Assembly (NCBI GenBank): GCA_030168595.1 | Contig: CP115556.1 | Span: forward strand, 1,550,001-1,614,000 | Source: Methanomassiliicoccales archaeon LGM-DZ1 | GTDB lineage: Archaea > Thermoplasmatota > Thermoplasmata > Methanomassiliicoccales > Methanomethylophilaceae | Direction: 5' to 3' | DNA: 64,000 nucleotides | Part shown: in pieces, positions 27,901-58,665 of the stretch | How positions within the stretch are numbered: position 1 is the stretch's first letter | Layout of the letters: the number at the start of each line of letters is the position of its first letter | Notes under the pieces: model-generated | Told to the model about the DNA's origin: nothing | The model's database searches: none | The model's input: the letters and a program-made list of their open reading frames with translations, nothing else | Translations under genes and position numbers: made by a program

Positions 27901-28697
27901 TCCCTGGAGTTGTACATTACGGAGAACGAGGTATGGACCAGGACGGCGTCCGGTATCGGGCTGCCGTCGTCCCTGAGGAAGTACTTCCTGAACGTCGCCT
28001 TCGTTCCCTCCTCGCCCTCGGTCTTGTAGGATACCGCCGAGAAGAAGACGGGGAGCGCGTTCATGCCCCTGCGCTCGATCTCGTCGGTCAGGGCATCCAC
28101 CGCGGCGAGGTTGTCATAGATCCAGAGGGTGCTGGCGAACAGTATCCCTACGGTCATCTTCGAGGGATCGAGGGTCCTGAGGTAATCCTCCTTCGAGATG
28201 TTCCTGTCCATCCCCTTATGATAGATGCCGTCCTTCCTCTGGGTCTTCGGTTCCGGGGGCACGGCATCGGTCTTCCCGAGCCCGTGCGCCGCGTACAGCA
28301 CCATCCCCCAGTCGTTCTCCGGCCCGCGGGAGGCCGCGTACCTGCAGATCTCCCGGTATTCATCGTCCCTCCCTCTGAAGAGGTCGCGGTTCATCAGCGT
28401 GACCTCGGCGTTGCCGCTGAACAGCAGCACCCACCCGGGGCATTTCTCCAGCGCCTTCCTGTAGCGGTCGAAGCGCTTGAAGCGGCAGGTGTCCGACATG
28501 CACCGGAAGTAGACGAAGTCCGCCTGCTCCGTGCGGTCCTCCAGCTCCTTGTATACGAGGACGTCGTCGTCCGCTTCCTCCGCGTTGATCGCATAGACAT
28601 CGGGCTCGATCCCCAGTTCCCTGAGCTTCTCCGCCGGGGCTGCGAGCACCTTCGCGTCAGCCGTCTGCAGAGACAGGACGACGATTCTCATCTTCAT
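24945..28697 (-). CDS. cobN: CobN/ChlH-like metal chelatase large subunit (paralogue 1)
   Basis: Large tetrapyrrole-binding subunit that inserts metal (cobalt in CobN) into the ring, driven by the ChlI/ChlD-type subunits. The 1250-residue protein matches CobN throughout: KVAIL-type middle domain, HVGTHGTLEWLPGK near residue 560, DDPGEGIQCKRR, PTGRNYYSLDP and WATDTMKTGGDD. Starts at 28697 (MKMRIVV) and 28691 are both possible; the frame runs on upstream but without homology. The palindrome at 28701-28715 almost touches the start codon. It shares this whole architecture with the gene at 30017. Which metal and ring it uses is not shown by sequence. Confidence 0.92.
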   Translation of the reverse strand: MKMRIVVLSLQTADAKVLAAPAEKLRELGIEPDVYAINAEEADDDVLVYKELEDRTEQADFVYFRCMSDTCRFKRFDRYRKALEKCPGWVLLFSGNAEVTLMNRDLFRGRDDEYREICRYAASRGPENDWGMVLYAAHGLGKTDAVPPEPKTQRKDGIYHKGMDRNISKEDYLRTLDPSKMTVGILFASTLWIYDNLAAVDALTDEIERRGMNALPVFFSAVSYKTEGEEGTKATFRKYFLRDDGSPIPDAVLVHTSFSVMYNSREGEGVRIADADNYYASLLGVPMIHTMTITGDYADYETEKVGLGKHEITNNVAFPEIDGDIIAVPIAYTPKKSGMKRNIAIPDRIEAAVDLAYRWARLRHIPEKDKRVAILLWQSRANSGVIGNAAGLDSVESIAGLLRRMKEEGYSVENVPENGKELIGEILDNVTNDLDSMSLETVRKKAADLVDRDDYLREYSQVPEWDRAMMEKDWGEPPGEICTDGRKIIIPGLVKGNVFIGYQPLRGMADKFEQSIHDPLLFAQHQYLAYYRWIRDVFKADIIIHVGTHGTLEWLPGKNVGLSAKCDPDVVLGNVPNLYIYIIDDPGEGIQCKRRAESVLDGHMPPSMARAGRYDDIAKVEVPLQEYFRNKGTNDAERRREMVKNIYEAARDAKMLNDLGLADSDPGPEGFEPYIVKLHDYISEVKDALVRADLHVLGKVPENGHFLETVYSLMRLDNGDVRSLRDAFAEDEGTDIQRCISDPSGSLPSGELNSAAVDRIDAEVQGFISFCDSVSFDEDQCLAHLRELHGKVSDDLKGSVHFMCSSVVPNVRRMGDEMQCLLDGMDGKYILPGPSGAPTRGNADILPTGRNYYSLDPDTVPTKASWEIGKRMADEMIDKYVAEKGEYPREVGFIIWATDTMKTGGDDMAYILWLMGVKPVWSSAGGQVVGLEPVPLSELGRPRIDVAVNITGLFRDTFPNLIDMIDDAVKIVAALDEDDEDNALAANLRKDIVDGIAAGLTPDEARRRNSVRIFGAPPGGYGTGVNKSIETGAWKDVKDLADVYIDWCSNGYEKGNYGQKMRDEFVKRFSKVGVTVKNMPDREIDLLDCDDVYEYLGGMNAFVRAYGRKDAVTFMGDGSDPKRTKVRSTKDELRFVFRSKVLNPKFINGLKEHGYRGAAEMANITEYTMAWGATSDAAEDWMYEGLTDKFLDEDTRKWMEEVNPYAEMNILNRLQEAIDRGLWNASDEYRQKIKDLYLESEERIEELTDR

Positions 28698-28700
28698 AGT

Positions 28701-28715
28701 TGGATGATATGTACA
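28701..28715. promoter_or_regulatory. Palindromic operator (degenerate), cobN1 promoter
   Basis: TGGATGATATGTACA: the left half TGGAT is intact and the right half is degenerate, but flanks AGTTG and CAACT add symmetry. It ends three bases before the cobN1 start. A TATA-like TTTCTAAG lies a little further upstream on the same strand. Confidence 0.45.
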
Positions 28716-29986: not shown

Positions 29987-30016
29987 TAAATAGTGCCCGG
30001 CGGATTAAGGGGAGGA

Positions 30017-33000
30017 ATGAACAGGATCTGCGTCCTCGGGATCGGCTCGCATACCGGCTTCCTATACCTGAAACCCGTCGCCGAGCTTCGTTCAGAAGGA
30101 TTTGACATAGAAGTTCTGGCAGGCGACTCATCGGAACTGGACAGCGATCCGGAGAAACTGGCTAGGTTCATGTCGGAGGCCCGCGGCTGCTGCGTGATCC
30201 TGGTCGCCGCGCATGGGGATGTGACCTTCTTCCGCCACTGGGACGCGTTCAGATCGCTCGCGCAGGAGGAGCGGATCCCGATAGCCGTAGCAGGGGTCAG
30301 CAAAGAGCTCGACGGACCCTACCGGTCCCTCTTCACCGGTCCTGCCGAAGAGCGTGAGAGGGTGAGGCTGCTGATGGAGGTTGGCGGCGACGCCAACCTG
30401 CGTTCGGTCCTCATCTGGTGCCTGAAGAACTTCGGCGGTAGGCCGGACCTAGAGGTTCCTCCGCCCGAGCTGCCTCCGGCCCAGGGCGTGTACGTCCCCG
30501 GAAGGAAGGAGGCCCTGACCCTGGAGGAGGGCCTGAAGGATGTCGGGAGGTCCGGAAGGCCCGTCATCATGATCCTGTTCGTGGACGCATACTATATCAG
30601 GCACAACACCGGCGCCATAGACTTCCTGCACAGCGAGGTCCGGAAGGCCGGCGGAGAACCTGTCTGCGTCTTCCTGCACACCTATCCCGACCCTGCGACC
30701 GGGTCGCTGGGCATCTCGAGGATCGTGGACACCTATCTGCTCCGCGATGGGAAGCCGATCATCGACGCCGTCATCAACACCATGGGGTTCTCGCTGTCCG
30801 TCATCGCTGTGCCGGGATGCGGGGAGCAGAAGGCTCCCGATGATTTCCTTTCCCGCCTCGGCGTTCCCGTGATCCAGGCGATAAACCTCTACGGCAGCGC
30901 GGATGATTGGAGGAAGAGCCCGTTCGGGCTCTCGGCCGCGGACATCGCGATGAGCGTCGTCTCCCCGGAATACGACGGGGACATCGACGGCGTCCCCTAC
31001 TGCGGGACGGAGAAGTCGGAGGACGGGGAATACAGGCAGGCCGCGATACCGGACCGCTGCGGAGCGCTCGCGGAGATGGCCGTGAGATGGGCAAGGCTGC
31101 GTCATATCCCCGAGAAGGACAAGAAGGTCGCCGTCCTCATCTACATGTACCCTCCGAGGCAGGACCTGGCGGGCGGAGGGTACGGCCTTGACACCATGGA
31201 GAGCGTCTGCCGGATCCTGGCGGAGATGAAGCGCCGCGGATACTCGGTCGACTGGGTCCCGGAGGGGTCCAAGGACCTCGCGGACAGGCTCCTGGCGGGG
31301 ATCACCAACGACGACAATTGGCACTCCGATGAGCAGATGCGCAAGGCCGCGGTGGACCTGGTGTCCCCTGAGCAGTACGCGGAATGGTTCTCGGAGGTCC
31401 CGGAGAAGGTGCGGAAAGCATTCATCGATGCGTGGGGGGACCCTCCGGGGGACATCCACACCCTGGACGGGAACCTGGTCCTGCCCGGCATCATGGACGG
31501 GAACGTGTTCATCGGGTTCCAGCCGGACCGCGGGAAGTGCACCTCGGAGGCCTACCACGACCCGGACACCGCGCCTCCGCACCAGTATCTCGCTTTCTAC
31601 CGCTGGCTCAAGGATGTGTGGAAGGCGGATGCACTCATCCACGTCGGGACCCACGGAACCCTCGAATGGCTTCCCGGGAAATCGGCCGGGCTGTCCTCGG
31701 AGTGCGATCCAGACATCATCCTCTCCCGGATGCCCAACATCAACCCCTACATAATCGATAACCCGGGCGAGGGGATGCAGTCGAAGCGCCGGCAGTACGC
31801 GGTGACGACCACCCACCTGATCCCGGCGATGGCCCGCTCCGGAGGCTACGACGAGATCAACCGCCTCGAGCTGGCGGTGCAGCAGTACCTGCAGGCACGG
31901 GACCAGGGGCAGGCGGACAAGCTCCCGGCCATCTCCGCGGAAGTTCGGAAGATGTGCGCGGAGATGAACATGCTCGGGGACCTGGCACTTTCGCCTGAAT
32001 GCTCCGATGAGACCCTCGACGCGCAGATGGACCGCCTCTACGACTACATCCTCGAGGCCAAGGATGCCATGATCAAGGACGGGCTTCACATCCTCGGCGA
32101 CGTCCCGGACGGGAAGAGGATGGCGGAGACCGTGTACATGCTGGTCCGTTCCAGGAACGGCGATGTTCCCTCCCTGAGGGAATCCGTCGCCCGTGCCCTC
32201 GGGTTCGAACTCAATGATCTTCTGAAGGATGCCTCCGCGGTCCTGCCCGACGGCAGGGTCAGCGGGCAGGCGCTGCAGGAGATCGATGACGGGGTGTTCT
32301 CCCTGATCGAAAGGTCCCAGAGCGCCGGTTTCGATACGGATCAAGCCTTGGAGGAGGCCCGCCGCATGTTCCCCGGAGCCGGCCCTGACCTGGAGGAGGC
32401 GGTGCGCTTCATGTGCGGTTTCGCAGTCCCGGCGGTAAGGAGGATGGGTGACGAGATCGGGAACGTCATGAAGGCCCTTGACGGGGGATTCGTCCCTCCC
32501 GGGCCCTCCGGCTGCCCCAACCGCGGCCGGGCGCAGATCCTCCCAACAGGCAGGAACTTCTACTCCATCGACCCCGACGGGATACCTTGGAAACCGAGCT
32601 GGGACATCGGTTCGGCCATGGCCGAGCAGATGGTGGAGAGATACGTTTCCGACCACGGGGTGTACCCCCGTTCCGTAGGCGTCGTCCTGTGGTCCACCGA
32701 CACCATGAAGACGGGCGGCGACGACGTCTCCTACATCCTGAAGATGATGGGCCTCCGCCCCGTGTGGGCGGACTACGGGGGCCGCGTGAAAGGTCTGGAG
32801 ATCATCCCCTTGTCGGAGCTGAAGAGGCCGCGCGTCGACGTGACGGTGAGGATCAGCGGCCTGTTCAGGGACACCTTCCCCAACCTGTGCGTGATGATCG
32901 ACGACGGGGTACGCAGGATAGCGGAGCTCGACGAGGACGATGAGGACAACTATCTGGCGGCCAACGTCCGCCGGGACACCGTCGAGGCCATCGCGCAGGG

Positions 33001-33760
33001 GATCCCGCCCGACCGCGCCCGCAGGGAAGCGTCGTTCCGCGTGTTCGGGGATGCTCCGGGCGTCTACGGCGGAGGGGTCAGCGAACTGATCCAGACCGGC
33101 AGGTGGGAGAGCACGAAGGACCTGGGCGAGGCCTACCTGGCCAAAGGCGGCTACGTCTACGGCAGGAGGCAGGCCGGCGAGGCCCGCCCCGACCTGTTCA
33201 GGAAGCGCCTGTCGGGGATGGACGCGACGGTGAAGAACCACAACACGCGCGCCGTCGACATGCTGGACATGGACGACGACATGGACTACCTCGGAGGCTT
33301 CAGCGCTGCCGTGGAGGCCGTCCGGGGGCAGAGGCCGGAATCCTACATGGGCGATTCCTCCGATACCCAGAATCTGAAACTTAGGACGTCCCGCGAGGAA
33401 TGCGCCTTCATATTCCGCAGCAAGATCGACAACCCGAAGTGGCTGGACGGCCTGAAGGAGCACGGCTTCGCCGGCGCCAAGGAGCTCTCGAAGCTGTTCG
33501 ATTACACCATGGGATGGTCGGGGACCTCGGGGATAGTCGAGGAGTGGATGTACACCGACCTGGCGGAGCGCTTCGTCCTGGACAAAGGCACGAGGGAATG
33601 GATCAAGGACGTCAACCCTTACGCGATGGCCGCCATGCTGGCACGTCTGTACGAAGCGAAGAAGAGGGGTTTCTGGAACCCCGATGATGCTATGATGTCT
33701 GAGCTGAAGGACGTCTACCTCGAGTTCGAGGAGAGGATCGAGGAGATCACCGACAGCTGA
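30017..33760 (+). CDS. cobN: CobN/ChlH-like metal chelatase large subunit (paralogue 2)
   Basis: Second CobN-type chelatase large subunit, 1247 residues, colinear with the one at 24945-28697: HVGTHGTLEWLPGKSAG, DNPGEGMQSKRRQ, PTGRNFYSIDP and WSTDTMKTGGDDVSY are all kept. The N-terminal 250 residues diverge most, where ring or metal specificity could differ. The ATG at 30017 is preceded by AAGGGGAGGA; a GTG at 29993 is less likely. A probable TATA element immediately follows the palindrome and lies about 25-30 bp before the ATG. The two paralogues are divergently arranged around the aldo/keto reductase. Confidence 0.92.
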   Translation: MNRICVLGIGSHTGFLYLKPVAELRSEGFDIEVLAGDSSELDSDPEKLARFMSEARGCCVILVAAHGDVTFFRHWDAFRSLAQEERIPIAVAGVSKELDGPYRSLFTGPAEERERVRLLMEVGGDANLRSVLIWCLKNFGGRPDLEVPPPELPPAQGVYVPGRKEALTLEEGLKDVGRSGRPVIMILFVDAYYIRHNTGAIDFLHSEVRKAGGEPVCVFLHTYPDPATGSLGISRIVDTYLLRDGKPIIDAVINTMGFSLSVIAVPGCGEQKAPDDFLSRLGVPVIQAINLYGSADDWRKSPFGLSAADIAMSVVSPEYDGDIDGVPYCGTEKSEDGEYRQAAIPDRCGALAEMAVRWARLRHIPEKDKKVAVLIYMYPPRQDLAGGGYGLDTMESVCRILAEMKRRGYSVDWVPEGSKDLADRLLAGITNDDNWHSDEQMRKAAVDLVSPEQYAEWFSEVPEKVRKAFIDAWGDPPGDIHTLDGNLVLPGIMDGNVFIGFQPDRGKCTSEAYHDPDTAPPHQYLAFYRWLKDVWKADALIHVGTHGTLEWLPGKSAGLSSECDPDIILSRMPNINPYIIDNPGEGMQSKRRQYAVTTTHLIPAMARSGGYDEINRLELAVQQYLQARDQGQADKLPAISAEVRKMCAEMNMLGDLALSPECSDETLDAQMDRLYDYILEAKDAMIKDGLHILGDVPDGKRMAETVYMLVRSRNGDVPSLRESVARALGFELNDLLKDASAVLPDGRVSGQALQEIDDGVFSLIERSQSAGFDTDQALEEARRMFPGAGPDLEEAVRFMCGFAVPAVRRMGDEIGNVMKALDGGFVPPGPSGCPNRGRAQILPTGRNFYSIDPDGIPWKPSWDIGSAMAEQMVERYVSDHGVYPRSVGVVLWSTDTMKTGGDDVSYILKMMGLRPVWADYGGRVKGLEIIPLSELKRPRVDVTVRISGLFRDTFPNLCVMIDDGVRRIAELDEDDEDNYLAANVRRDTVEAIAQGIPPDRARREASFRVFGDAPGVYGGGVSELIQTGRWESTKDLGEAYLAKGGYVYGRRQAGEARPDLFRKRLSGMDATVKNHNTRAVDMLDMDDDMDYLGGFSAAVEAVRGQRPESYMGDSSDTQNLKLRTSREECAFIFRSKIDNPKWLDGLKEHGFAGAKELSKLFDYTMGWSGTSGIVEEWMYTDLAERFVLDKGTREWIKDVNPYAMAAMLARLYEAKKRGFWNPDDAMMSELKDVYLEFEERIEEITDS

Positions 33761-35751: not shown

Positions 35752-36681
35752 TTGGATATATGTTCCATTGGAGGGGTTCCCGCGGAGATCAAAATCGACG
35801 GACTGACATTCTCGTATTCCAGCACCCCGGTGCTGAAGGACATCACTCTCGATCTGACCGGGCCGAAGTTCGTATCGATTCTGGGCCCGAACGGCGTCGG
35901 GAAATCCACCCTGATCCACTGCATCAACAAGATCCTGTCCCCGACCGGCGGGACGGTGATGCTCGACGGCAAGGATGTCAAGGACATCACGATAAAGGAG
36001 ATGGCCAAGCAGGTGGGCTATGTCCCCTATTCCGCCAACGACACGTTCCCCCTCACGGTCGTCGACACCGTCCTCATGGGAAGGCACCCCCACAGCAAAT
36101 GGGGGTCCCTGGACAAGGACCTGGACATAGTGTACGACACTCTCAAGATGCTCGGCATCTCCCATCTCGCCATGAGGAACTTCAACGAGCTCTCCGCCGG
36201 CCAGCATCAGAAGGTCATGCTGGCGCGCGGGCTGGTCCAGGAGCCCAAGGTGCTCCTGCTGGACGAGCCGACGTCGAACCTGGACATCAGGCACCAGCTC
36301 GACGTTACGAAGATGCTGAAGAGGCTGTCCGATGAGAAGGGGATCCTGGTCATCATGATCAGCCACGACATCAGCATTGCGGCGAAGTTCTCCGACGAGA
36401 TCATCATGCTCAGGGACGGGGCGATCTACGCCGCCGGCACTCCCAATGAGGTTATCACCGAGCCCAACCTCGAGGCGGTGTACGGAGTGAAGTCCCGCAT
36501 CGTCGATGACGACGGGCGCCCGCATGTGATCCTGAAGGACGCGCTGCCGATGGACGACCTCATCGAGAGCGGCGATACCCCGTATCCGGCCATGAACCGC
36601 GCCATAAGGTCCAAGAAGGGCACGGGGGATGCGGGTGCGGCAGGCAGCCAGGTGGCCGCTGACGGTTCGGACAGCGACTGA
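35752..36681 (+). CDS. FepC/BtuD-type ABC importer ATPase, orphan, heading the cbi cluster
   Basis: ATPase subunit of an iron-siderophore/cobalamin type importer, 309 residues, with Walker A GPNGVGKSTLI, DTVLMGRHPHSKW (typical of FepC/BtuD), signature LSAGQHQK and Walker B LLLDEPTSNLDI. No permease or binding protein is next to it. There is no ATG or GTG in a suitable place: the frame opens with TTG at 35752 right after a TAA, inside the operator palindrome. Translation may use this TTG or a non-standard start near the GGAGGGG at 35770. It precedes cbiL by 50 bp. The shared operator suggests it powers the permeases at 48.9-56.7 kb. Confidence 0.85.
   Translation: MDICSIGGVPAEIKIDGLTFSYSSTPVLKDITLDLTGPKFVSILGPNGVGKSTLIHCINKILSPTGGTVMLDGKDVKDITIKEMAKQVGYVPYSANDTFPLTVVDTVLMGRHPHSKWGSLDKDLDIVYDTLKMLGISHLAMRNFNELSAGQHQKVMLARGLVQEPKVLLLDEPTSNLDIRHQLDVTKMLKRLSDEKGILVIMISHDISIAAKFSDEIIMLRDGAIYAAGTPNEVITEPNLEAVYGVKSRIVDDDGRPHVILKDALPMDDLIESGDTPYPAMNRAIRSKKGTGDAGAAGSQVAADGSDSD
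35753..35767. promoter_or_regulatory. Palindromic operator, orphan ATPase and cbi cluster
   Basis: TGGATATATGTTCCA: half-sites TGGAT and TTCCA with a five-base spacer. A TATA-like CATTAATACGG lies about 25-30 bp upstream (35720-35730), so the site covers the likely transcription start, a repressor position. Confidence 0.55.
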
Positions 36682-36731: not shown

Positions 36732-37433
36732 ATGAGAGGCAAGCTCTACGGAGTGGGCGTGGGGCCGGGAGACCCGGACCTCATGACCCTCAGGGCGAAG
36801 GATGTTCTGGAAAAGTGCAGCGTTATCGCCTATCCAGTCAGGAAGCTCGGCGAGGAAGGCGTCGCGCTGAACATCATCAAGCAGCGCGTGGACATCAGCG
36901 GCAAGGAGATCGCCGAACTGCTCTTCAGCATGGATCCTGACGACGAGGTCAGGAAGAAGTGCAGGGCAGAGGCCATGGCCAAGATGTGCCAGATGCTCGA
37001 CGAAGGCAGGGACATCGCGATGGTCACCCTCGGCGACGTGGCGGTCTACAGCACTTACATGTACATTGACAGGGAGATCCGGGAGCGCGGTTACGAGACC
37101 GAGGTCATCCCCGGCATACCGTCGTTCTGCCACGGGGCCGCCCTCGCGCGCCTGCCCCTCATGATCGGAGAGGAGAGCCTCGCCGTCGTCTCGATGGCCA
37201 AGCACAACCTCGCCAAGGCGGAGAAGGCGCTGGATTCCTCGGACAATATCGTCCTCATGAAGGCGTTCTCGTCCATCTCAGACATCGCGGCGATGATGCG
37301 CTCCCGCAGCATCCCCCTGGACCGGGCGACGGTCATGAGCAATATCGGCATGGCCGACGAGTATATCGGACCCCTCGATCCCGAACGTTCTTACGGTTAT
37401 TTCACGACCGTTCTCATCAAGAAAGGCGAGTAA
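36732..37433 (+). CDS. cbiL: Cobalt-precorrin-2 C20-methyltransferase
   Basis: SAM-dependent corrin-ring methyltransferase that methylates C20 of (cobalt-)precorrin-2. The 233-residue protein has the tetrapyrrole methylase fold with KLYGVGVGPGDPDLMTLRA at the start, TLGDVAVYSTYMYI and VIPGIPSFCHGAA, all CbiL-type. The ATG has AGGAG eight bases upstream. It ends in TAA one base before cbiF. First ring-methylation gene in the cluster cbiL-F-H-C. Confidence 0.92.
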   Translation: MRGKLYGVGVGPGDPDLMTLRAKDVLEKCSVIAYPVRKLGEEGVALNIIKQRVDISGKEIAELLFSMDPDDEVRKKCRAEAMAKMCQMLDEGRDIAMVTLGDVAVYSTYMYIDREIRERGYETEVIPGIPSFCHGAALARLPLMIGEESLAVVSMAKHNLAKAEKALDSSDNIVLMKAFSSISDIAAMMRSRSIPLDRATVMSNIGMADEYIGPLDPERSYGYFTTVLIKKGE

Positions 37434-37434
37434 A

Positions 37435-38196
37435 ATGGAGAAAGTGCATTTCATCGGAGCCGGTCCCGGAGACCCTGAGCTCATCACGATAAAAGGAAAG
37501 AAACTGATCGACCAGGCGGACGTCATCATCTACGCCGGCTCCCTCGTCAACCCCGCGGTCCTCGCCGGGAGGAAGAAGGATGCCGAGGTCCACGACAGCG
37601 CCTACATGAACCTCGACGAGGTCATGGACGTGATGATCCCGGCGGCCAAGGCCGGGAAGAAGGTCGTCAGGGTCCACACCGGGGACCCCTCGATCTACGG
37701 GGCCATCCGCGAGCAGATGGTCAGGCTCGACGCCGAAGGGATAGAGTACGACGTCATCCCCGGAGTCTCCTCGTTCTGCGCCTCGGCCGCGGCCGTGAAG
37801 AAGGAGTTCACCCTCCCGTCGGTGTCCCAGACGGTCATAATCACGAGGATGGAGGGCAGGACCCCCATGCCGGACGGCGAGAAGCTGAAGGACCTCGCCA
37901 GGCACCACGCCTCCATGTGCATCTTCCTCTCTGTGGGCTTCATGGACGAGCTAACCAAGACGCTGCTCGAGGCAGGATACGCCCCAGACTGCCCCATGGC
38001 GGTCGTCTACAAGGCCAGCTGGCCGGAGCAGAAGATCCTCTACGGCACCGTGTCGGACATGGCCGAGAAGGTGAAGGAGAACAAGATCGAGAAGACCGCC
38101 ATGACCATGGTCGGCGGGTTCCTCGGGGACAAGTTCGAGCTCTCCAAGCTCTACGACAGCCATTTCACCACCGGCTACCGCAAGGGGACCGACTGA
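37435..38196 (+). CDS. cbiF: Cobalt-precorrin-4 C11-methyltransferase
   Basis: Methylates C11 of cobalt-precorrin-4. The 253 residues show VHFIGAGPGDPELITIKG, the CbiF/CobM-typical VIYAGSLVNP variant (IIYAGSLVNPAVL), VHTGDPSIYGAIREQM and VIPGVSSFCASAA. It starts one base after the cbiL stop and ends one base before the cbiH start, so it is in the middle of a compact operon. Confidence 0.94.
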   Translation: MEKVHFIGAGPGDPELITIKGKKLIDQADVIIYAGSLVNPAVLAGRKKDAEVHDSAYMNLDEVMDVMIPAAKAGKKVVRVHTGDPSIYGAIREQMVRLDAEGIEYDVIPGVSSFCASAAAVKKEFTLPSVSQTVIITRMEGRTPMPDGEKLKDLARHHASMCIFLSVGFMDELTKTLLEAGYAPDCPMAVVYKASWPEQKILYGTVSDMAEKVKENKIEKTAMTMVGGFLGDKFELSKLYDSHFTTGYRKGTD

Positions 38197-38197
38197 G

Positions 38198-38941
38198 ATG
38201 GCCGGGAAGCTCACCGTCGTCGGCTTCGGCCCGGGCGGCAAAGAGGACATGACCCTGCGCGCCGTCCATGCCATCGAGGACGCGGACATCGTCACCGGGT
38301 ACATCACGTACGTCGATCTCCTGAAGGAGTTCTTCCCCGATAAGACGTACAAGGCCACCGGCATGATGAAGGAGGTCGACCGCTGCCGGTCCGCCATCGA
38401 GGACGCCGCGTCCGGGAAGAAGGTGGCCATCGTCAGCTCCGGCGACTCCGGCATCTACGGCATGACCGGGCTGGTCTACGAGCTCGCCGAGGAGATGAAG
38501 GCCGGGATCGAGATCGAATCCGTCCCCGGCGTGACCGCCGCCTCATCGAGCGCTTCCGTCCTGGGCGCGCCCCTGATGCACGACACCGCCCTCATCAGCC
38601 TGTCCGATCTCATGACCCCCATAGAGAAGATCATGGACAGGGTAGATGCGGCCGGAAAGGCGGATTTCGTCATCGCGCTGTACAATCCCAAGAGCCGCAG
38701 CAGGACCGAGTACCTGGGACAGGCGGCCGACATCCTGCTGAAATACCGTTCCCCCGAGACTCCCGTGGGCATCGTGAGGGACGCCGGCAGGAAGGACCAG
38801 TCCAAGACCCTGACGGTGCTCGGGAAGCTGAAGGACGCCGATGTGGACATGTTCTGCACCGTCGTCATCGGGAACTCCCAGACGTACGTCAGGGACGGGC
38901 TGATGATCACTCCCCGCGGATACCGCGGGAAGAGGTTCTGA
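38198..38941 (+). CDS. cbiH: Cobalt-precorrin-3B C17-methyltransferase
   Basis: Methylates C17 with ring contraction in the anaerobic route. The 247-residue protein has the CbiH/CobJ pattern: VVGFGPGGKEDMTLRA, GYITYVDLL, SSGDSGIYGMTGLVYE, VPGVTAASSSASVLGAPL and ALYNPKSRSR. The cbiG domain sometimes fused to it is absent. Direct continuation of the operon. Confidence 0.94.
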   Translation: MAGKLTVVGFGPGGKEDMTLRAVHAIEDADIVTGYITYVDLLKEFFPDKTYKATGMMKEVDRCRSAIEDAASGKKVAIVSSGDSGIYGMTGLVYELAEEMKAGIEIESVPGVTAASSSASVLGAPLMHDTALISLSDLMTPIEKIMDRVDAAGKADFVIALYNPKSRSRTEYLGQAADILLKYRSPETPVGIVRDAGRKDQSKTLTVLGKLKDADVDMFCTVVIGNSQTYVRDGLMITPRGYRGKRF

Positions 38942-48578: not shown

Positions 48579-48581
48579 AAT

Positions 48582-48657
48582 TGGCGTCCCGGATGGAATT
48601 CGAATCCATGTCGGGGCCTCGACAGGGCCCCATGATAGGCCACTACACTACCGGGAC
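48582..48657 (-). tRNA. tRNA-Asp (anticodon GTC) with encoded CCA
   Basis: Complete cloverleaf on the minus strand: acceptor GTCCCGG with CCGGGAC, anticodon stem GGGCC with GGCCC around loop CTGTCGA (anticodon GTC), T arm ATGGA-TTCGAAT-TCCAT, discriminator G and an encoded CCA at 48584-48582. D arm TAGTGTAGTGG matches archaeal tRNA-Asp. A TATA box TTAAATAG at about 48684-48691 sits 27-34 bp upstream. No intron. Confidence 0.95.
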
Positions 48658-48810
48658 GGCTGAAATGACCTATTGATATGTGCTATTTAATGGTTGCTGA
48701 ATCGAAGGGGCCGGGCCTGGAATACAGAGGCCAGTACCGGTTCTTGCCTATGCTTCGAAACACGGAATTCCGAAGGAAAACGGGACTTGCAGCATACAGT
48801 ATATCACAAA

Positions 48811-48825
48811 TGGATGATACAGCCA
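48811..48825. promoter_or_regulatory. Palindromic operator, first permease pair
   Basis: TGGATGATACAGCCA: left half intact, right half AGCCA differs from ATCCA by one base. It is followed two bases later by ATAATAATCGG, the probable TATA element for the permease at 48866. The spacing to the TATA box matches that at cobN2 and the 51-kb site. Confidence 0.5.
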
Positions 48826-48865
48826 ACTATAATAATCGGAACATCTATGGGCCCGTGTTCTGAGC

Positions 48866-49981
48866 ATGAAAGGCAATGGACCTGCGGACGGAGCAGTCGG
48901 AGAACCCGGCGGCTGTGAGATGATGGAGGCATATGCCAGATATACCGGCCGCAAGGTCATATTCATCGCTGTCTGCATTGTCGCGATCTTCTGCCTGTTC
49001 TTCGTTTCTCTCATGTACGGTACGCTCGACCTCTCCGTGAGGGATGTGTTCAATCTCTTCTGGGATCACCTTTCGGGCAGGACATACGACCGTATACAGG
49101 AGAATGATGAATGGTTCTCGGACAGGATCCTCTGGGAGTACCGTGTCCCGCGCGCCCTGTTCTGCATAATCGCCGGTTCCTCTCTCGCGGTGGCGGGCGC
49201 CGTCATGCAGAGTGTGATGAAGAACCCGCTCGCCGATGCGTACACTACCGGAGTATCTTCAGGAGCGATGTTCGGTGTGGCGGTCGCTATGGTCCTGGGC
49301 CTTTCCGTCGGGGGCGGGTCCACCGGAGGCGGCGTGGTCATCAACGCCATGGTGTTCTCGATGATCCCGGTGATCGTCATGGTAGCGATGGCCCCTTTCT
49401 TCAAGGAGTCCCCCGCATCCCTGATTCTGGCGGGAGTGGCCACTTCCTACCTGTTCAATGCTATGACGACCCTCATCCTGGTGACCTCGGATTCCGCCGA
49501 TCTCCAGACCGTCTACCGCTGGCAGGTCGGCTACCTTGCGGATATCCGCATGGATTCTATCCTGCCGACGTTCCTGACGGCGGCGATCGGATCAGCGATT
49601 CTCATCCCCCTGTCCAGGAAGCTCAATCTGATGGCCATGAGCGATAACGAGGCCAAGGCCCTCGGGGTGAACGTCAACCTGCTGAGGATCGTCTGCCTGG
49701 CCGTCATGTCATGCATGGTCGCGACAGTTGTCAGCTACGCTGGGATAATCGGATTCGTGGGCCTGGTGGTGCCTCATATCGTGCGCATGGTCATCGGTTC
49801 GGACAACAGGTTCGCCCTTCCTGCATCGGCGGTCTTCGGGGCGCTGTTCTTCCTGTCCTGCGACATCATCTGCAGGGCGAACTATTGGGGCGGCGAGACG
49901 CCTACCGGCGTCATCACCTCTCTTGTCGGCGCTCCGATCTTCATGTTCCTGATCGTGAGATCGAAGAAGGGGATGTGGTGA
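48866..49981 (+). CDS. FecCD-family ABC permease A
   Basis: BtuC/FecCD-type permease, 371 residues, with AGAVMQSVMKNPLADAYTTG and GFVGLVVPHIVRMVIG. The N-terminal extracytoplasmic segment (WDHLSGRTYD followed by WFSDRILW) pairs it with the permease at 54492 rather than with its neighbour, so it is the A type of a heterodimer. The ATG at 48866 lies about 28-38 bp after the TATA element; an internal ATG at 48923 is an alternative. No ATPase gene is adjacent. It is followed by permease B after 18 bp. Confidence 0.9.
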   Translation: MKGNGPADGAVGEPGGCEMMEAYARYTGRKVIFIAVCIVAIFCLFFVSLMYGTLDLSVRDVFNLFWDHLSGRTYDRIQENDEWFSDRILWEYRVPRALFCIIAGSSLAVAGAVMQSVMKNPLADAYTTGVSSGAMFGVAVAMVLGLSVGGGSTGGGVVINAMVFSMIPVIVMVAMAPFFKESPASLILAGVATSYLFNAMTTLILVTSDSADLQTVYRWQVGYLADIRMDSILPTFLTAAIGSAILIPLSRKLNLMAMSDNEAKALGVNVNLLRIVCLAVMSCMVATVVSYAGIIGFVGLVVPHIVRMVIGSDNRFALPASAVFGALFFLSCDIICRANYWGGETPTGVITSLVGAPIFMFLIVRSKKGMW

Positions 49982-49999
49982 GATGGCGGGAGCGGCGAT

Positions 50000-51100
50000 A
50001 TGAATTTGGAGATAACGATGCCGGATCCGAAAAGGATCTATAAAGCATCGAAAAGGCGGAGCCTGCTCCTGACTCTGGCGGTTGCCGCCGCCTGCATCAT
50101 CGTGGCAGTCTATTCTCTCGGGATAAACGCCTATGACATGACCTTCTCCGATGCCTGGAGCGTGTTCATAGACCATCTGAAGAACGGAAGGCCGGAGAGA
50201 GTCGTCGGAGATCATGACAGTTACGTCACCTGGCTGACGGACTATGTGGTGGTCTACAGCAACGCTTCCCGCATCGCCGCGGCCGCGGCCGTCGGGGTGA
50301 TCCTCTCGGTCGGCGGATCCGTGATGCAGACGGTGACGCACAATCCTCTCACCGAGCCCTATACCATCGGGATATCGTCGGCCGCCCTGCTGGGTTACAG
50401 CATCGCCATGGTCTACGATGTCTGCATCCTGCCTTTCGCGTCGGGGGATGCAGCGGAGATAATCAACGCTTTCGTGTTCTCGCTGATGCCGGCATCGGTG
50501 ATCCTCTTCATATCGGTCTTCAGGAAGATGACGCCGATGATGATGGTGCTGATCGGCATCGGGATGATGTACTTGTTCTCGGCGTTCAGCACCTTTGTGC
50601 GCTTCAATGCGTCCGAGGAGGACCTTAAGACCATCTACGATTGGACCGTCGGGAGTGTCGGGAGTGTCGATTGGGACCAGACGGCGATCCTCTTGATCGC
50701 CGCAGCGTTGCTGGCACTTCTGTTTATACTCGTATCTAGGTCGGTGAATGTTCTTGCCACGGGGGATGATGAGGCACATGGACTCGGCCTTAATGCCGTC
50801 CTGTTCAGGGTGTTCTGTTTCGTGGCAATCTCGGTGGCAGTGGCCATCGCAGTATGCTATACCGGGACCATCGGTTTCGTTGGTCTGGTCGCGCCTCATA
50901 TTGCCAGGCTGTTCACGGGAAACGACAACCGTCTTCTCATACCCGCGTCGGCGGCCGTGGGGGCCCTCATGATTATCGCCGGGGATACGCTGGTGAGATG
51001 GCTTCCTGGTGGCCTCCCGGTCGGAGTGATCACGGCCATCATAGGGAGCCCGCTCTTCCTGTACTTCCTATACAGGCAGCGTAAGAACTCGCTCTTCTGA
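50000..51100 (+). CDS. FecCD-family ABC permease B
   Basis: BtuC/FecCD-type permease, 366 residues, with GGSVMQTVTHNPLTEPYTIG and GFVGLVAPHIARLFTG. Its first external segment (YDMTFSDAWSVFIDHL) matches the permease at 55595 (YDISLVHSWEVFIGHL), so it is the B type. GGGAG lies seven bases before the ATG at 50000. With permease A it probably forms a heterodimeric channel serving the double-headed binding protein encoded next. Confidence 0.9.
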   Translation: MNLEITMPDPKRIYKASKRRSLLLTLAVAAACIIVAVYSLGINAYDMTFSDAWSVFIDHLKNGRPERVVGDHDSYVTWLTDYVVVYSNASRIAAAAAVGVILSVGGSVMQTVTHNPLTEPYTIGISSAALLGYSIAMVYDVCILPFASGDAAEIINAFVFSLMPASVILFISVFRKMTPMMMVLIGIGMMYLFSAFSTFVRFNASEEDLKTIYDWTVGSVGSVDWDQTAILLIAAALLALLFILVSRSVNVLATGDDEAHGLGLNAVLFRVFCFVAISVAVAIAVCYTGTIGFVGLVAPHIARLFTGNDNRLLIPASAAVGALMIIAGDTLVRWLPGGLPVGVITAIIGSPLFLYFLYRQRKNSLF

Positions 51101-51120
51101 GCATCTGGCATTGTGCATAT

Positions 51121-51135
51121 TGGATGATTATTCCA
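51121..51135. promoter_or_regulatory. Palindromic operator, double-headed binding protein
   Basis: TGGATGATTATTCCA with flanks extending the symmetry to ATTGGA and TCCAAT. It is followed at once by ATATATTTATAAGG, a strong TATA box. It lies between permease B and the binding-protein gene, giving the latter its own promoter. Confidence 0.6.
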
Positions 51136-51213
51136 ATATATTTATAAGGGATTCATGGTTACTTGGACGTAAGCTCCAACAGTCTCATTGGATTCTGGAA
51201 CAGCGTGATATCT

Positions 51214-54200
51214 ATGGAAAAGAAGTTACTGTACGCCATCATCATCGGAGTCATCGCCGTCGTAGCGGTGTCCGCGGCGGCCGTTGTCATATCATCAGAC
51301 GATGATCATGATGACAACAACGGGGGCGACAGCACCCTCGCAGTATCCGTCTCCGACCTGAATGATGCCAAACTCAAGATTTTCGGTAATGCCGACGGAG
51401 ACGGCGACATCGATCAAGATGATGTCGACGCCATACAGAAGCTCATTGATGATTCGGGATACCTGGCCATGGCCGATGCCGACGGAGACGGCGACATCGA
51501 TGAGGACGACCTGAACATCATCAAAGCGGTCGTTGACTGGAAAGACGGGGATGCTCAGGTCTCCCTCCTCAATGTCAACTATCATGACACCGACGGCAAC
51601 GGGACAATGGACACAGAGCTTGTATCCACCAAGTTCCCGGTGACCTCAGCCATAATGACCGCTTCTAGCAACGATGCCCTGCTCGTCTACATGCTGGATA
51701 AGACAGACATCATTCATGGAGCTTCGTACAGTTACAGTGCCAAGAGTGCTTATGCCTCCATGGACATCACTCTCTTCGGAGACAACCTGCTGGACACCTC
51801 CAAGGTTGCCAAGATCGGAAGTTCGTCGACTTCAATCCCTATCGAGGACGGAACAACATCCAGCGGAACGGCGTACACTGGGTCTTCTAAGATCATCAAG
51901 GATTACGGCGTTACTGCAGTTATCACTGACTGGAACCGCACTTATATCACTAATGAAAGCGAATATGAGAAAACAGGTGTCGATGTCATCAGGGTCGCTG
52001 CGGCATCTCTCGATAAAGACGTTTACACCAACTCAATCCTCACACTCGGTTTCTTCACTCAATCGCTCAGCAAGGCCGCCGAAGTTGTATCTGCTTACGA
52101 TGCGGCGTTCGAGAGCATTGATTCCAAGGTTTCCGGGATCTCTGATTCTGACAAGGTTTCTGCCGTTGCCTCCTCGATGAGCGGCTATATATCCAGCGGC
52201 GGTTCCGATTATACCGACGTCATCGTCAGGGCCGGAGCGAAATTCGCACTTGAAGGATATGATTTCGGCAGTTCTGCAAGCGTCAAGCCCAGCCCTGACC
52301 ATCTAGACATCTATCAGAACTACAGTTTCGATTACATCGTCCATCTCAGGACCGTTGCCGGATATGCTACATCGACGGATGACGGTCTGAGTTACGCCCA
52401 ATCTGTCTACAAGACATATTCTGACTCATTCAACCTCTGGGAGAACTACGGCATATCAGGAAGCCAGATTCTGGTGTCCGGATGCGTACCTGTGCCTGTA
52501 AGAGTAGCCCTGACGGCATACGCCCTATACGGCTCCTCCGATTATTCGGACATCTTCACCCTGACTTGGGCGAACGAGATCAGCCAGAGCTTCATCAACC
52601 TGTTCTCGGGAGACGCCGCCAATCTCACTGCCGGAGAACTGACTCTCGTCATCAACTCCAGCGATGACACGTATTCGACCATCACTTACAATATGAACGG
52701 ATACACCAACAGTCCCCTCAACCCGACCAAGTACAGAGAGGGAGCCAAGGTAACTCTTTCCGATCCAATTCTCAGCGACGACAAGCATTTCGACGGCTGG
52801 TACACGGACTCTGAGTTCACCACCAAGTTCGGAGGAATCACAGCAGATACCACTGGCGATATTGTCATCTATGCCAAGGTTGTCGATGGGTTCACCGTGA
52901 CATTCGATGCTCAGAACGGCGCATCAGACGCAGTCACGAAGGTTTCCTACGCCGATGGCTCTACTGTCAACGTTCCTCTGTATAAGCACGGAAGCAGCAG
53001 TTACGTCGATGTTCCTGAGTACAGCGGGCACACATTCCTGGGCTGGTACACCGACAGCGGGGAGAAGTACTCATTCACGACAGCCGAGACGGAGAGCTTC
53101 ACGCTGACCGCCAAGTGGCAGGTCACCGAGGCTGCCAACATCTATCTGAAGGTCCTCGGGAACGCCAACAAGGACCTGACCATCGACGTTGATGACGTTG
53201 CCATTATCAATGACATCATCGCTGGAACGAAGACCTATGACGATTATCCATATGCGGATGCCAATAACGACGGCAAAGTGGACAGCACTGACCTCGATCT
53301 GGTCAACGCCATGATCGCCAAGACCGACGGCACCACTGTCTACGTGGACAATCTCGACAGGACCGGGGCCAGGACCATGACCCAGATCACATACCCGCTT
53401 GACAACATCGTCTTTTACGGGACCAACATAATCTATCCTGCAATGTACGTCGGAGCAGCCGACCACACTGCTGGGTACTTCGGGAAACTGTCCTATGCGA
53501 ATTCGGAATCGGCGCTTCCCTCATCGGGAGCGAAACAGCTCGGCACAGCGGCAAGGTCGATCACCCCTGCAGATTGGAAGCAGTTTACCACACTTGCGAG
53601 CGAGAAGACCATCGGTGCGTTCGTCGTGGACTTCAGCGGCATTTCGGCGATCACCAACACGTTCCAGAGCGATCTTGACAAGGGAGGCATACCCATGCTC
53701 AGCTGGGGATCGGCAGATGTAAGTGCCGATGCATACTCTGCTCTCACTTTGGCCTTCCTCTTCGGAGGAGATAATGCGGAGATCGGCGAGAAATATGCGC
53801 AGAAGACTATCGATGTCATCGATGCGATCGCGCAGAAGGTCTCGACCATGTCCGACAGCGAGAAGCAGTCGTATATCTCGCTGAACATGTACATCTACAT
53901 CTGTGAGAATGATTCGACGTTCAACACCAGTGCTACTACTGCCGGAGGTGTTCCTTACTACACCATCAACAAGAACTTCGCCAGCAAATATGCCGGAAAG
54001 AACTCAACGAAGATGGACAGTACCGAGGCATTGTCCAACTATACGGATGTGGACAAGCTGATAAACAACCGTTCGATTGATTTCGGCACAGATGTCAATG
54101 ATACTATCGTCAGCACCTGGACACACTCGAATAATGGTGTCAGCTCAGAAAAGTACTTCTCCAAGTACCTCGAGAAACTGTACTATGTGAACAACCTCCT

Positions 54201-54441
54201 GCCTGCAGGAGCCAAAGTTGCATACATGGCTTACGCTCTTTACGGAGACACTCTTAGCGGAGATTCCGACAGCAGCACCGTGTTCTCCAAGGAGTGGGCG
54301 GACTCAACCCTGCAGTACTTCATCGATATGCATCTGGCGCCGTTCCAGTACGATTCTGACGGCACCACTGCTTATCAGACAGTGGACAGCATCGTGACTG
54401 TTTTTGGCTACAGCGACTATCAGGCAGCCAAGTCTGCTTGA
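51214..54441 (+). CDS. Double-headed binding protein: (dockerin-like + class III SBP) x2 with InlB-type repeats
   Basis: 1075-residue surface protein with an N-terminal hydrophobic anchor (about 5-26) and an Asp-rich stretch. A dockerin-like EF-hand pair (about 51-105, GNADGDGDIDQDD and DADGDGDIDEDD) precedes a binding-protein domain (about 115-475). Two Listeria-Bacteroides (InlB B) repeats (about 485-635, FDGWYTDSEF and FLGWYTDSGE) are followed by a second dockerin-like pair (about 644-706, GNANKDLTIDVDD and DANNDGKVDSTD) and a second binding domain (about 727-1062). The two binding domains are homologous (RVALTAYALYG and KVAYMAYALYG near their ends). The ATG at 51214 is preferred; TTG at 51163 is open in frame. 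It is flanked on both sides by an A-B permease pair. Ligand unknown; corrinoid or chelated metal is an inference from regulation. Confidence 0.82.
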   Translation: MEKKLLYAIIIGVIAVVAVSAAAVVISSDDDHDDNNGGDSTLAVSVSDLNDAKLKIFGNADGDGDIDQDDVDAIQKLIDDSGYLAMADADGDGDIDEDDLNIIKAVVDWKDGDAQVSLLNVNYHDTDGNGTMDTELVSTKFPVTSAIMTASSNDALLVYMLDKTDIIHGASYSYSAKSAYASMDITLFGDNLLDTSKVAKIGSSSTSIPIEDGTTSSGTAYTGSSKIIKDYGVTAVITDWNRTYITNESEYEKTGVDVIRVAAASLDKDVYTNSILTLGFFTQSLSKAAEVVSAYDAAFESIDSKVSGISDSDKVSAVASSMSGYISSGGSDYTDVIVRAGAKFALEGYDFGSSASVKPSPDHLDIYQNYSFDYIVHLRTVAGYATSTDDGLSYAQSVYKTYSDSFNLWENYGISGSQILVSGCVPVPVRVALTAYALYGSSDYSDIFTLTWANEISQSFINLFSGDAANLTAGELTLVINSSDDTYSTITYNMNGYTNSPLNPTKYREGAKVTLSDPILSDDKHFDGWYTDSEFTTKFGGITADTTGDIVIYAKVVDGFTVTFDAQNGASDAVTKVSYADGSTVNVPLYKHGSSSYVDVPEYSGHTFLGWYTDSGEKYSFTTAETESFTLTAKWQVTEAANIYLKVLGNANKDLTIDVDDVAIINDIIAGTKTYDDYPYADANNDGKVDSTDLDLVNAMIAKTDGTTVYVDNLDRTGARTMTQITYPLDNIVFYGTNIIYPAMYVGAADHTAGYFGKLSYANSESALPSSGAKQLGTAARSITPADWKQFTTLASEKTIGAFVVDFSGISAITNTFQSDLDKGGIPMLSWGSADVSADAYSALTLAFLFGGDNAEIGEKYAQKTIDVIDAIAQKVSTMSDSEKQSYISLNMYIYICENDSTFNTSATTAGGVPYYTINKNFASKYAGKNSTKMDSTEALSNYTDVDKLINNRSIDFGTDVNDTIVSTWTHSNNGVSSEKYFSKYLEKLYYVNNLLPAGAKVAYMAYALYGDTLSGDSDSSTVFSKEWADSTLQYFIDMHLAPFQYDSDGTTAYQTVDSIVTVFGYSDYQAAKSA

Positions 54442-54450
54442 TCTGAAACA

Positions 54451-54470
54451 GGGAGGGGTTCACCCCTCCC
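54451..54470 (+). terminator. Intercistronic hairpin after the binding protein
   Basis: Perfect 8-bp stem GGGAGGGG (54451-54458) with CCCCTCCC (54463-54470), loop TTCA, ten bases after the stop and 22 bases before the next permease. It probably attenuates transcription so that binding protein exceeds permease. Confidence 0.55.
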
Positions 54471-54491
54471 ATCTTAACTTCTGAGATTTCC

Positions 54492-55598
54492 ATGGGCATT
54501 TCTGCAATCGAATCAAGCGAGGACATAAAGATCGTATACCGCCACCAGATCGCTAGACGCATCCTCCTTCTGGCGTTCTGCATAGCCGCGATGATCCTTT
54601 TCATCGGGATGTTCTCGCTGGCAGAATATGATTCGATCTCGATCTCCGAGACATACAAGATCATCTGGAACCACCTCATGGGCACCACCTATGACGTCCA
54701 CAGCGAGGACATCACCGAAAGGAGATACTTCTGGGCGGATCGTTTCATCTGGAACACGATCATGCCGCACATCTGCGCAGCCATCCTGGCTGGCGGGGGG
54801 CTGGCTGTATGCGGGGCCCTTATGCAGGCCATCATGAACAATCCGCTTGCCGATCCCTACAGCACAGGCATATCATCTGGGGCTGCCTTCGGTGCTGTGG
54901 CGGCCATCATATCGGGGATATCCATCTCCACCGTGGAAGGAGAGATGGGCATCGTGACCAATGCATTCGTCGGGGCCATGATTCCGGCGGTCATCGTGAT
55001 CATCTTGTCTCAGAGGATCAATATGACCCCGGCGACGCTCATCCTCCTGGGAACTGCTGTTTCCTATTTCTTCAACTCCCTGACCACTTATGTTATGGTC
55101 ACCGCAGATGCCGATACCCTGAAATCGGCCTACCTGTGGCAGGTCGGTTCGCTCGACAGCATCGATTGGAACGGAACGTACGTCATGGCGGCAGTGACCA
55201 TCGTGGGAAGCATCATCGTCCTGCTGCTGTCCAACATACTCAACGTGATGTCGCTGGGCGACAACAGCGCCAAGAGCCTGGGGATAGATGTCCATAAATT
55301 CCGCATCATCTGCCTGACCCTGATGGCGGTGATGACAGCGGCCATCGTCTCCTTCACCGGCATCCTCGGGTTCATCGGGCTGGTATCTCCTCATATCGTG
55401 AGATTGGTCATCGGATCGGACAACAAGTTCGTGATACCGGTCTCTATCGTTGTGGGGTCATTCCTGCTCCTGCTCTCCGATTATCTTGCGTTCCAACTTT
55501 CCGACATCCCCGTAGGCGTGATACTCAGCATCATCGGGAGCCCGGTGTTCTTCCTCCTGATCGTGTTCCAGGGGCGCAGGACGGGGGCGATCTATTGA
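54492..55598 (+). CDS. FecCD-family ABC permease A'
   Basis: BtuC/FecCD-type permease, 368 residues, with CGALMQAIMNNPLADPYSTG and GFIGLVSPHIVRLVIG. The first external segment (WNHLMGTTYD, FWADRFIW) makes it the counterpart of the permease at 48866. The stop overlaps the start of permease B' by four bases (TTGA), so they are coupled. Confidence 0.9.
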   Translation: MGISAIESSEDIKIVYRHQIARRILLLAFCIAAMILFIGMFSLAEYDSISISETYKIIWNHLMGTTYDVHSEDITERRYFWADRFIWNTIMPHICAAILAGGGLAVCGALMQAIMNNPLADPYSTGISSGAAFGAVAAIISGISISTVEGEMGIVTNAFVGAMIPAVIVIILSQRINMTPATLILLGTAVSYFFNSLTTYVMVTADADTLKSAYLWQVGSLDSIDWNGTYVMAAVTIVGSIIVLLLSNILNVMSLGDNSAKSLGIDVHKFRIICLTLMAVMTAAIVSFTGILGFIGLVSPHIVRLVIGSDNKFVIPVSIVVGSFLLLLSDYLAFQLSDIPVGVILSIIGSPVFFLLIVFQGRRTGAIY

Positions 55599-56653
55599 GC
55601 CTGAGGGAGGAATATGGCAGGAGCTGCCACCGTAAAGTGCTCTTCACGGCAGGTCTGGTACTGCTGGCAATTCTATCGTTCTTCCTGACCCTGGGATTCG
55701 GTGTCTATGATATCTCCCTCGTGCACTCATGGGAGGTCTTCATTGGGCACCTGACGGACAACATCGCCGATCCGGACGGCGACTATTACATCTGGGGAGA
55801 GTACATAGGAAGGGTTTCACGCGCCATCGGGGCGATCTTCGTGGGCGCCGCGCTTTCGGTCGCGGGCGCGGTCATGCAGACCGATTTCAAGAACCCGCTC
55901 GCCGAGCCGTACACCATGGGGATCGCATCTGGCGCCTTCCTCGGCGCAGTGCTGTTCCTCGTTGACGGTTTCTCCGTATTGCCGTTCGTCGATGACAATC
56001 TGGCACTAGTGGCAAATTCTTTCGTCATGTCGCTCGTTCCGACGGCCATCATCGTCATCGTGGGGTTCTTCAGAAAGATGACGCCGACAATGATGATACT
56101 CACCGGGATCGCCGTAATGTTCCTGTTCAGCTCCATTTGCCAGTTAATCCTGGTGACCGCGCCTTCCGAGAACCTTTCTGATGCCTATTCATGGCGTGTC
56201 GGCTCGTTATCCAGGATCACGTGGGACAATCTGCCGTACATCGCGTCCGTATCATCGGTGCTGATGGTCCTCACCTACCTGTTCTCAGGAAAGCTCAACG
56301 TCCTCTATGCCGGGGACCGCAGCGCCCAGACCTTGGGGGAGAATGCAGGGAACGTCAGGATCGTCACTCTAATCCTCGTTTCGCTCCTGACCGCTTCGGT
56401 CGTCTGCTTCGTCGGGACGATCGGGTTCATAGGTCTCGTGGGGCCACACGTGGCCAGGATCTTCGTCGGTTCCAACAACCGCTATCTCCTGCCCGCCTCT
56501 GCCTCCTTCGGGGCCGCCTTCATCATACTGGCAGATACCCTGGCGAAGATTTCCGGTCCGAACGGGCTTCCTGTAGGGGTGATCAGCTCGATGGTCGGTG
56601 GACCTCTCTTCATCTGGATCCTCATCCGCCAGCGCAAAAGCGCATGGGCCTGA
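55595..56653 (+). CDS. FecCD-family ABC permease B'
   Basis: BtuC/FecCD-type permease, 352 residues, with AGAVMQTDFKNPLAEPYTMG and GFIGLVGPHVARIFVG. Counterpart of the permease at 50000. It starts at TTG 55595, overlapping the A' stop. No ATPase follows; the next gene is unrelated and has its own promoter. Confidence 0.9.
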   Translation: MSLREEYGRSCHRKVLFTAGLVLLAILSFFLTLGFGVYDISLVHSWEVFIGHLTDNIADPDGDYYIWGEYIGRVSRAIGAIFVGAALSVAGAVMQTDFKNPLAEPYTMGIASGAFLGAVLFLVDGFSVLPFVDDNLALVANSFVMSLVPTAIIVIVGFFRKMTPTMMILTGIAVMFLFSSICQLILVTAPSENLSDAYSWRVGSLSRITWDNLPYIASVSSVLMVLTYLFSGKLNVLYAGDRSAQTLGENAGNVRIVTLILVSLLTASVVCFVGTIGFIGLVGPHVARIFVGSNNRYLLPASASFGAAFIILADTLAKISGPNGLPVGVISSMVGGPLFIWILIRQRKSAWA

Positions 56654-56698
56654 TCTCCGCGAAAAACGATATAGCCCCAAGGCAATGACCAATCTGTC

Positions 56699-57706: not shown

Positions 57707-57718
57707 ACGGTTTTCCCT

Positions 57719-58582: not shown

Positions 58583-58639
58583 AACCGTCACAGTGTAAAA
58601 AATGGCATCGGCGGTATTTTTCCGTTCTGCTCATGCATC

Positions 58640-58657: not shown

Positions 58658-58665
58658 AAATGGTT

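Follow-up and report, generated by a model that had tools for sequence, protein, structure and literature searches.

The stretch of DNA analysed here, referred to as the window, comprises 64,000 nucleotides (bases 1550001-1614000) of the genome of a Methanomethylophilus-like gut methanogen, a member of the Methanomassiliicoccales. The genome consists of one closed contig of 1.768 Mb, is 99.7% complete, and contains 17 FecCD matches. At the locus of interest, one binding-protein (SBP) gene is flanked by four intact, full-length FecCD permeases, designated A1 (48866), B1 (50000), A2 (54492), and B2 (55595), with Pfam E-values between 6e-77 and 9e-86 and scores of 259-288 bits against a cut-off of 26.5 (Table 1). 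The spacing is operon-like: A1 and B1 are separated by 18 bp, the SBP gene and A2 by 50 bp, and A2 and B2 overlap by 4 bp.

Table 1. Features of the transporter locus and of associated genes in the window.
Feature	Position	Strand	Remarks
Second CobN-like protein	24951..28706	-	PF02514 1185 bits; 55% identical to the CobN beside the type I unit in L055
CobN cobaltochelatase subunit	29993..33760	+	TIGR02257 897 bits, over cut-off; conserved context
Likely ATPase of the transporter	35752..36681	+	12-13 kb upstream; only unpaired FecCD-type ATPase in the genome
CbiL, CbiF, CbiH (36732, 37435, 38198)	36732..38941	+	Corrin-ring methyltransferases beside the ATPase; all three over the NCBIfam cut-off
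Permease A1	48866..49981	+	FecCD, type II lineage, A-type; Pfam FecCD 8.7e-86; groups with type II A permeases of G013/G057/G017; correlates with head 1
Permease B1	50000..51100	+	FecCD, type II lineage, B-type; Pfam 6e-77; groups with type II B permeases
Two-headed binding protein, N-terminal membrane anchor	51214..54441	+	ORF open from TTG 51163
Head 1	51370..52605	+	EF-hand/dockerin-like pair (about 51376-51537) and class III SBP domain; type II SBP clade
Linker	52678..53121	+	Two List-Bact/InlB-type repeats (Flg_new, PF09479), E 2.6e-19, two stretches
Head 2	53146..54333	+	EF-hand/dockerin-like pair (about 53149-53316) and class III SBP domain; type I SBP clade
Permease A2	54492..55598	+	FecCD, type I lineage, A-type; Pfam 7.6e-80; groups with G075/G074/G015/G011 A permeases; correlates with head 2
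Permease B2	55595..56653	+	FecCD, type I lineage, B-type; Pfam 2.4e-77; type I B clade

The SBP is encoded by a single open reading frame (51163-54441), corresponding to 1092 amino acids from the first TTG or 1075 amino acids from the likely ATG at 51214. The protein starts with a membrane anchor (MEKKLLYAIIIGVIAVVAVSAAAVVISS), which is followed by an EF-hand pair, an SBP domain, two List-Bact repeats, another EF-hand pair, and another SBP domain. Its two halves are 26% identical over about 450 amino acids (E 2e-19). When modelled by AlphaFold2 with family alignments, each head formed a complete domain (pLDDT 89.6 and 92.9, pTM 0.91 and 0.90 for heads 1 and 2, respectively). Both heads matched solved TroA-like/class III SBPs in the PDB (E 2e-11 and 4e-10), the Foldseek matches including 4mo9, 4hn9, and YiuA; at the sequence level, only head 1 exceeded the PF01497 cut-off (30.0 bits versus 27.5). 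Thus, the original prediction of one double-headed SBP between four FecCD permeases, with heads joined by InlB-type repeats, is borne out: two complete class III domains are present in one reading frame, and two List-Bact/InlB-type repeats lie in the linker.

Each head opens with a Dockerin_1-like EF-hand pair, in which the Asp ligand positions are invariant in 20 and 23 homologues. The pair before head 2 scored 24.9 bits in the genome search (cut-off 22.9) and 18.3 bits in the protein scan. It had been suggested that these modules dock the protein to a surface partner; a cohesin-bearing surface scaffold was considered as such a partner. The modules are similar to type I dockerins (maximum 30.8 bits in the genome, with four SBPs over the cut-off), and cohesin-like domains occur in 16 of the 102 family genomes. 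However, a search of the genome itself for a cohesin-like partner returned no PF00963 match even at E<=1, all seven Dockerin_1 matches in the genome fall in FecCD SBPs, the module is also a regular feature of SBPs where the genome has no cohesin match (for example, G075, G015, and G011), and the SBP already carries an N-terminal anchor. Attachment to a cohesin scaffold is therefore very unlikely. The simplest reading is that the EF-hand pairs serve as a structural calcium-dependent spacer, though they might conceivably bind a partner other than cohesin.

Relatives of these genes were gathered from 102 genomes of the family, mostly MAGs, and their loci were annotated with profiles built in this analysis. 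The relatives usually have a unit SBP-permA-permB with a single ATPase on either side, and heterodimeric permease pairs are the rule. In a tree of 116 permeases, A1 grouped with A2 in an A clade, and B1 with B2 in a B clade (SH-aLRT 97 and 99; this and other large trees result from quick searches with SH-aLRT support only). The pairing of 48866 with 54492 and of 50000 with 55595, originally proposed from sequence features, is therefore confirmed. With strong support, A1 and B1 belong to one lineage, type II, together with permeases from G013, G057, and G017, while A2 and B2 belong to another, type I, together with permeases from G075, G074, G015, and G011. The same split was seen in trees of SBP heads, where head 1 falls into the type II clade and head 2 into the type I clade, both being strongly supported.

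The original prediction had attributed this arrangement to duplication of a permease pair and of the binding domain at the locus. The sequence identities (42% for both A1-A2 and B1-B2, compared to 33-39% for other combinations) would be in line with such an event. However, both permease sets have distinct orthologues in other species, with identities of up to 69% for A2/B2 and up to 58% for A1, the heads belong to two strongly supported clades, and relatives contain separate SBP-A-B units. Barring a long-branch artefact, the permease and head trees reject local duplication, which we regard as highly improbable. The type I and type II channel sets are old paralogues that were brought together, and whose divergence predates the genus split of the family.

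The relationship between heads and channels was evaluated by comparing log bit-score profiles of heads and permeases across 58 single-head reference units. The profile of head 1 correlated with those of A1 and B1 (0.84 and 0.59) but not with those of A2 and B2 (-0.01 and -0.09), while the profile of head 2 correlated with those of A2 and B2 (0.91 and 0.71) but not with those of A1 and B1 (-0.04 and 0.10); within the window alone, such a match has a chance level of 1-in-2, and the weight rests on other genomes (MAGs). Each head shares its ancestry with one of the two permease pairs.

In three closely related genomes (G056, G067, and G069, the g9 genomes), which probably represent one evolutionary event, a II-I double SBP adjoins a type I pair and an ATPase. 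In these genomes, a strong type II head is found only as the first half of this SBP (583-601 bits, the next best being 116-253), and scoring of all first-look candidates yielded no second one. The type II channel is encoded elsewhere as ATPase-A-B (L166, L167, and L168), away from contig ends, and no SBP, either intact or broken, was revealed within 20 kb of it by a masked six-frame profile search. In G056, this channel lies among housekeeping genes, with genes for GAPDH- and phosphoglycerate kinase-like proteins downstream, as judged by eye. At the loci read in G013, G057, G017, G053, G072, G071, G066, and G043, single-gene type II SBPs adjoin their own permeases. In the window, a masked six-frame search upstream of A1 and around the 35752 ATPase revealed no remnant of an SBP.

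Another genome, G018, encodes a three-headed SBP of 1419 amino acids followed by three permease-ATPase pairs (L135:2229-12297, equivalent to L175). The heads are unlike one another (23-30% identity). When heads and permeases were assigned by their best single-unit relatives, three of three matched: L140 is the closest relative of both head 3 and permease 1, L139 that of both head 2 and permease 2, and L152 that of head 1, with L152 and L145 tied for permease 3. Profile correlations gave the same diagonal, at a weaker level. In G018, the type II pair directly follows CobN (CobN-A-B), with no intervening SBP; the type II head of this genome is found at C57, fused to another SBP. The possibility, raised in the original prediction, that a single protein feeds two heterodimeric channels is backed by the type II channels without an SBP in G056, G067, and G069 and by the three-for-three match in G018, and we consider it well supported by these sequence comparisons.

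It is also conceivable, though unlikely, that both heads feed A2B2 only, in a GlnPQ-like manner, providing a wider ligand range or a higher local concentration, while A1B1 would be either a relic or served by a different SBP. A double SBP beside a single permease pair is found in G056, G067, G069, and G070, and homo-multi-headed SBPs with one channel exist (L180 and L182). In the window, the SBP gene adjoins A2 in the usual SBP-A-B order, while A1-B1 precedes the SBP gene, a departure from that order that would suit a leftover pair. These arrangements have to be set against the retention, in G056, G067, and G069, of an intact type II channel with its ATPase but without any other type II SBP, the correlation of about 0.0 between the profile of head 1 and the adjacent type I pair, and the intact, full-length state of A1 and B1. 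We favour the reading in which the protein feeds both channels.

The multi-headed SBPs of the family differ in how similar their heads are. In hetero-headed proteins (the window SBP, those at L058, L061, L067, L060, L088, L135, and L158, and the second SBP of L138), the heads are 23-30% identical, while in homo-headed proteins (L077, L180, L182, and the first SBP of L138) they are 74-92% identical. Three near-identical heads (76-92%) are present at L180:9123-13043, L182:6774-10721, and L138:4049-7333, of which L180 and L182 have a single permease-ATPase each; such proteins appear to be products of recent tandem head amplification. Several channels are implied by the hetero-headed class only, and extra heads do not always mean extra channels. 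It seems that single proteins came to combine heads that formerly belonged to separate importers, and versions with one to three heads occur in relatives. We lean toward the view that gut Methanomassiliicoccales possess "hub" SBPs, in which one anchored chain carries unlike heads for two to three ABC channels, both cis neighbours and SBP-less channels in trans, and which would have originated repeatedly and be distinct from the homo-headed, single-channel class.

A common origin of the II-I fusions was evaluated using two head trees obtained by careful searches. A single clade uniting the heads of the window SBP with those from G056, G067, and G069 was rejected for both heads (AU p 7.7e-6 and 2.0e-5), so that one origin of the fusion is rejected. 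The II-then-I fusion therefore most likely arose at least twice independently, a small probability being left for an old fusion followed by repeated splitting.

Some other genes of the relatives have unusual architectures. At L017:5929-9141 and L073:1105-4035, FecCD permeases carry 640-740 extra N-terminal residues that are beta-propeller-like (PQQ_2); an SBP adjoins in L017. At L179:5424-11024, a permease pair and an ATPase adjoin a protein of 1866 amino acids with one N-terminal SBP head and about 1470 residues mostly without a Pfam match.

The original prediction noted the lack of an ATPase in the locus. This is true of 48866-56653, where no ATPase was found and the operon has no dedicated one, but a very likely ATPase is encoded upstream. 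Two FecCD-type ATPases are present elsewhere in the window, at 45905-46696, with its own permease, and at 35752-36681, with none. Genome-wide, 11 of 12 FecCD-type ATPases adjoin a permease, the exception being 35752-36681, and the only intact permeases without an adjacent ATPase are A1, B1, A2, and B2. The 35752 ATPase groups with ATPases from type I systems of G015, G017, and G018 (up to 86% identity). At the orthologous position in G075, G074, and G013, between CobN or ABC-2 genes and cbi genes, the ATPase and SBP-A-B are found together. In G015, as in the window, the ATPase lies at a distance (about 11 kb) from SBP-A-B. The operon was therefore split, and the ATPase was left behind. The missing ATPase is thus most likely 35752-36681. 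The 45905 ATPase was rejected as a partner, as it lies beside a permease of its own (44889) and clusters with relatives of that system.

The 35752 ATPase may also power A1B1. A precedent for a common ATPase is provided by Staphylococcus aureus FhuC, which powers the Hts, Sir, and Isd importers (PMC10147376). The permeases have a common pattern, NxM/L...D..A..LG, in the coupling-helix region.

The 35752 ATPase is located between CobN/ABC-2 genes and CbiL-CbiF-CbiH, and CobN-like genes are found beside type I/II units in many relatives. Equivalog matches to BtuCDF were below cut-off, with 195 bits versus 334 for BtuC (PRK03784, A2) and 132 versus 281 for BtuD (the 35752 ATPase), and none of the NCBIfam BtuC/FecC/FhuB cut-offs was reached. 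A ligand call from the structure search was rejected, as both heads match many siderophore and heme SBPs about equally. An expansion of BtuC-like proteins in the Methanomassiliicoccales, with five BtuC clades, is read as B12 importers in a published account (PMC10804542). Based on this reading and on the CobN/cbi context, a corrinoid or related tetrapyrrole can be put forward tentatively as the ligand. The two CobN paralogues of the window lie side by side on opposite strands (24951-28706 and 29993-33760); the transporter-linked CobN of relatives more closely resembles the first, while the second passes the cobaltochelatase cut-off.

Overall, the locus is likely to encode a composite FecCD-type ABC importer, in which channels A1B1 (type II) and A2B2 (type I) would each use their own head of one shared, anchored SBP and a common ATPase, with ligands that are possibly of the corrinoid type. 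In this model, A1B1 would be the docking site of head 1 and A2B2 that of head 2, with the EF-hand pairs most likely acting as calcium-stabilised spacers and the InlB repeats as a flexible linker. The ATPase encoded at 35752-36681 would energise both channels, and the transported species may be two corrinoids or related tetrapyrrole/metal-chelate compounds.

Usually, one binding protein serves one importer, or several binding proteins compete for one importer. If true, the arrangement proposed here is the opposite, with one protein supplying several importers, some of them encoded elsewhere. A literature search for multi-headed SBPs serving several channels returned only the GlnPQ/OpuA type. 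Lactococcus lactis GlnPQ also has two different SBDs per chain, with differing specificities and largely independent (PMC8025302). However, in GlnPQ the SBDs are part of the same chain as the transmembrane subunit and compete for a single translocator, whereas the window SBP is a separate reading frame with its own N-terminal anchor and a class III fold, and each of its heads tracks a different channel. The FecCD permeases, class III SBPs, and FecE/BtuD-like ATPase are shared with BtuCDF, FecBCDE, and FhuBCD, and heterodimeric pairs are known from FecCD and FepDG. These systems have one SBP per transporter, unlike the window system, where the SBP has heads for two transporters and dockerin-like EF-hands, and the operon is without an ATPase. 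The importers served by S. aureus FhuC are likewise of the FecCD type and powered by an ATPase encoded elsewhere, but each has its own SBP (PMC10147376). The expanded BtuC repertoire concerns the same order and the same permease family; the accessible part of that account does not mention multi-headed SBPs, SBP-less channels, or permease pairs (PMC10804542). The natural head swaps make the specificity of SBP-permease docking directly testable, and ABC operons that lack an SBP may be working systems rather than broken ones. The arrangement also bears on the competition of rumen methanogens for scarce cofactors, such as corrinoids.

The corresponding site was compared in Candidatus Methanomethylophilus sp. 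1R26 (G012, NZ_LOPS01000001, locus L069), which is of the same species as the window genome. DNA identity of the flanks is 92% (43000-46700), 99% (tRNA-Asp, 48579-48709), and 98% (58681-62700). In contrast, the transporter block (48709-58680), bounded by the conserved tRNA-Asp and CBS/AGCS/ppsA genes, is mostly unalignable or 66-77% identical, and 1R26 contains two separate SBP-A-B units with different sequences. The block appears to have been replaced, or to have diverged very fast, within one species. Separate binding-protein genes in related genomes had been named in advance as a sign of an assembly join, and such genes are indeed present in 1R26. They do not show a join, because the 1R26 genes are not orthologous but represent replacements, and SBP fusions are found independently in further genomes. 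Since the window genome is a single closed contig, the reading frame is continuous and in frame with a repeat linker, and double or triple SBPs arise independently in genomes from other projects, we consider it extremely improbable that two genes were joined into the double SBP by an assembly or sequencing error.

Upstream of the block, 46821-48578 contains an IS110-family transposase, after which come two exact 223-bp tandem repeats that end beside tRNA-Asp (48582-48657). This element is absent in 1R26, and the repeat motif is seen again at L021 (11100). Further upstream, in the operon of the 44889 permease and the 45905 ATPase, the SBP position is occupied by a protein (43737-44879) without a significant Pfam match; it is 87% identical to its counterpart in 1R26 and 40% identical to that in G015, and is possibly a member of an unrecognised binding-protein family. 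Elsewhere (G000:C1:1358137-1358334), a FecCD fragment with an internal TAG, found in a genome of a pyrrolysine-using order, is probably a decayed permease.
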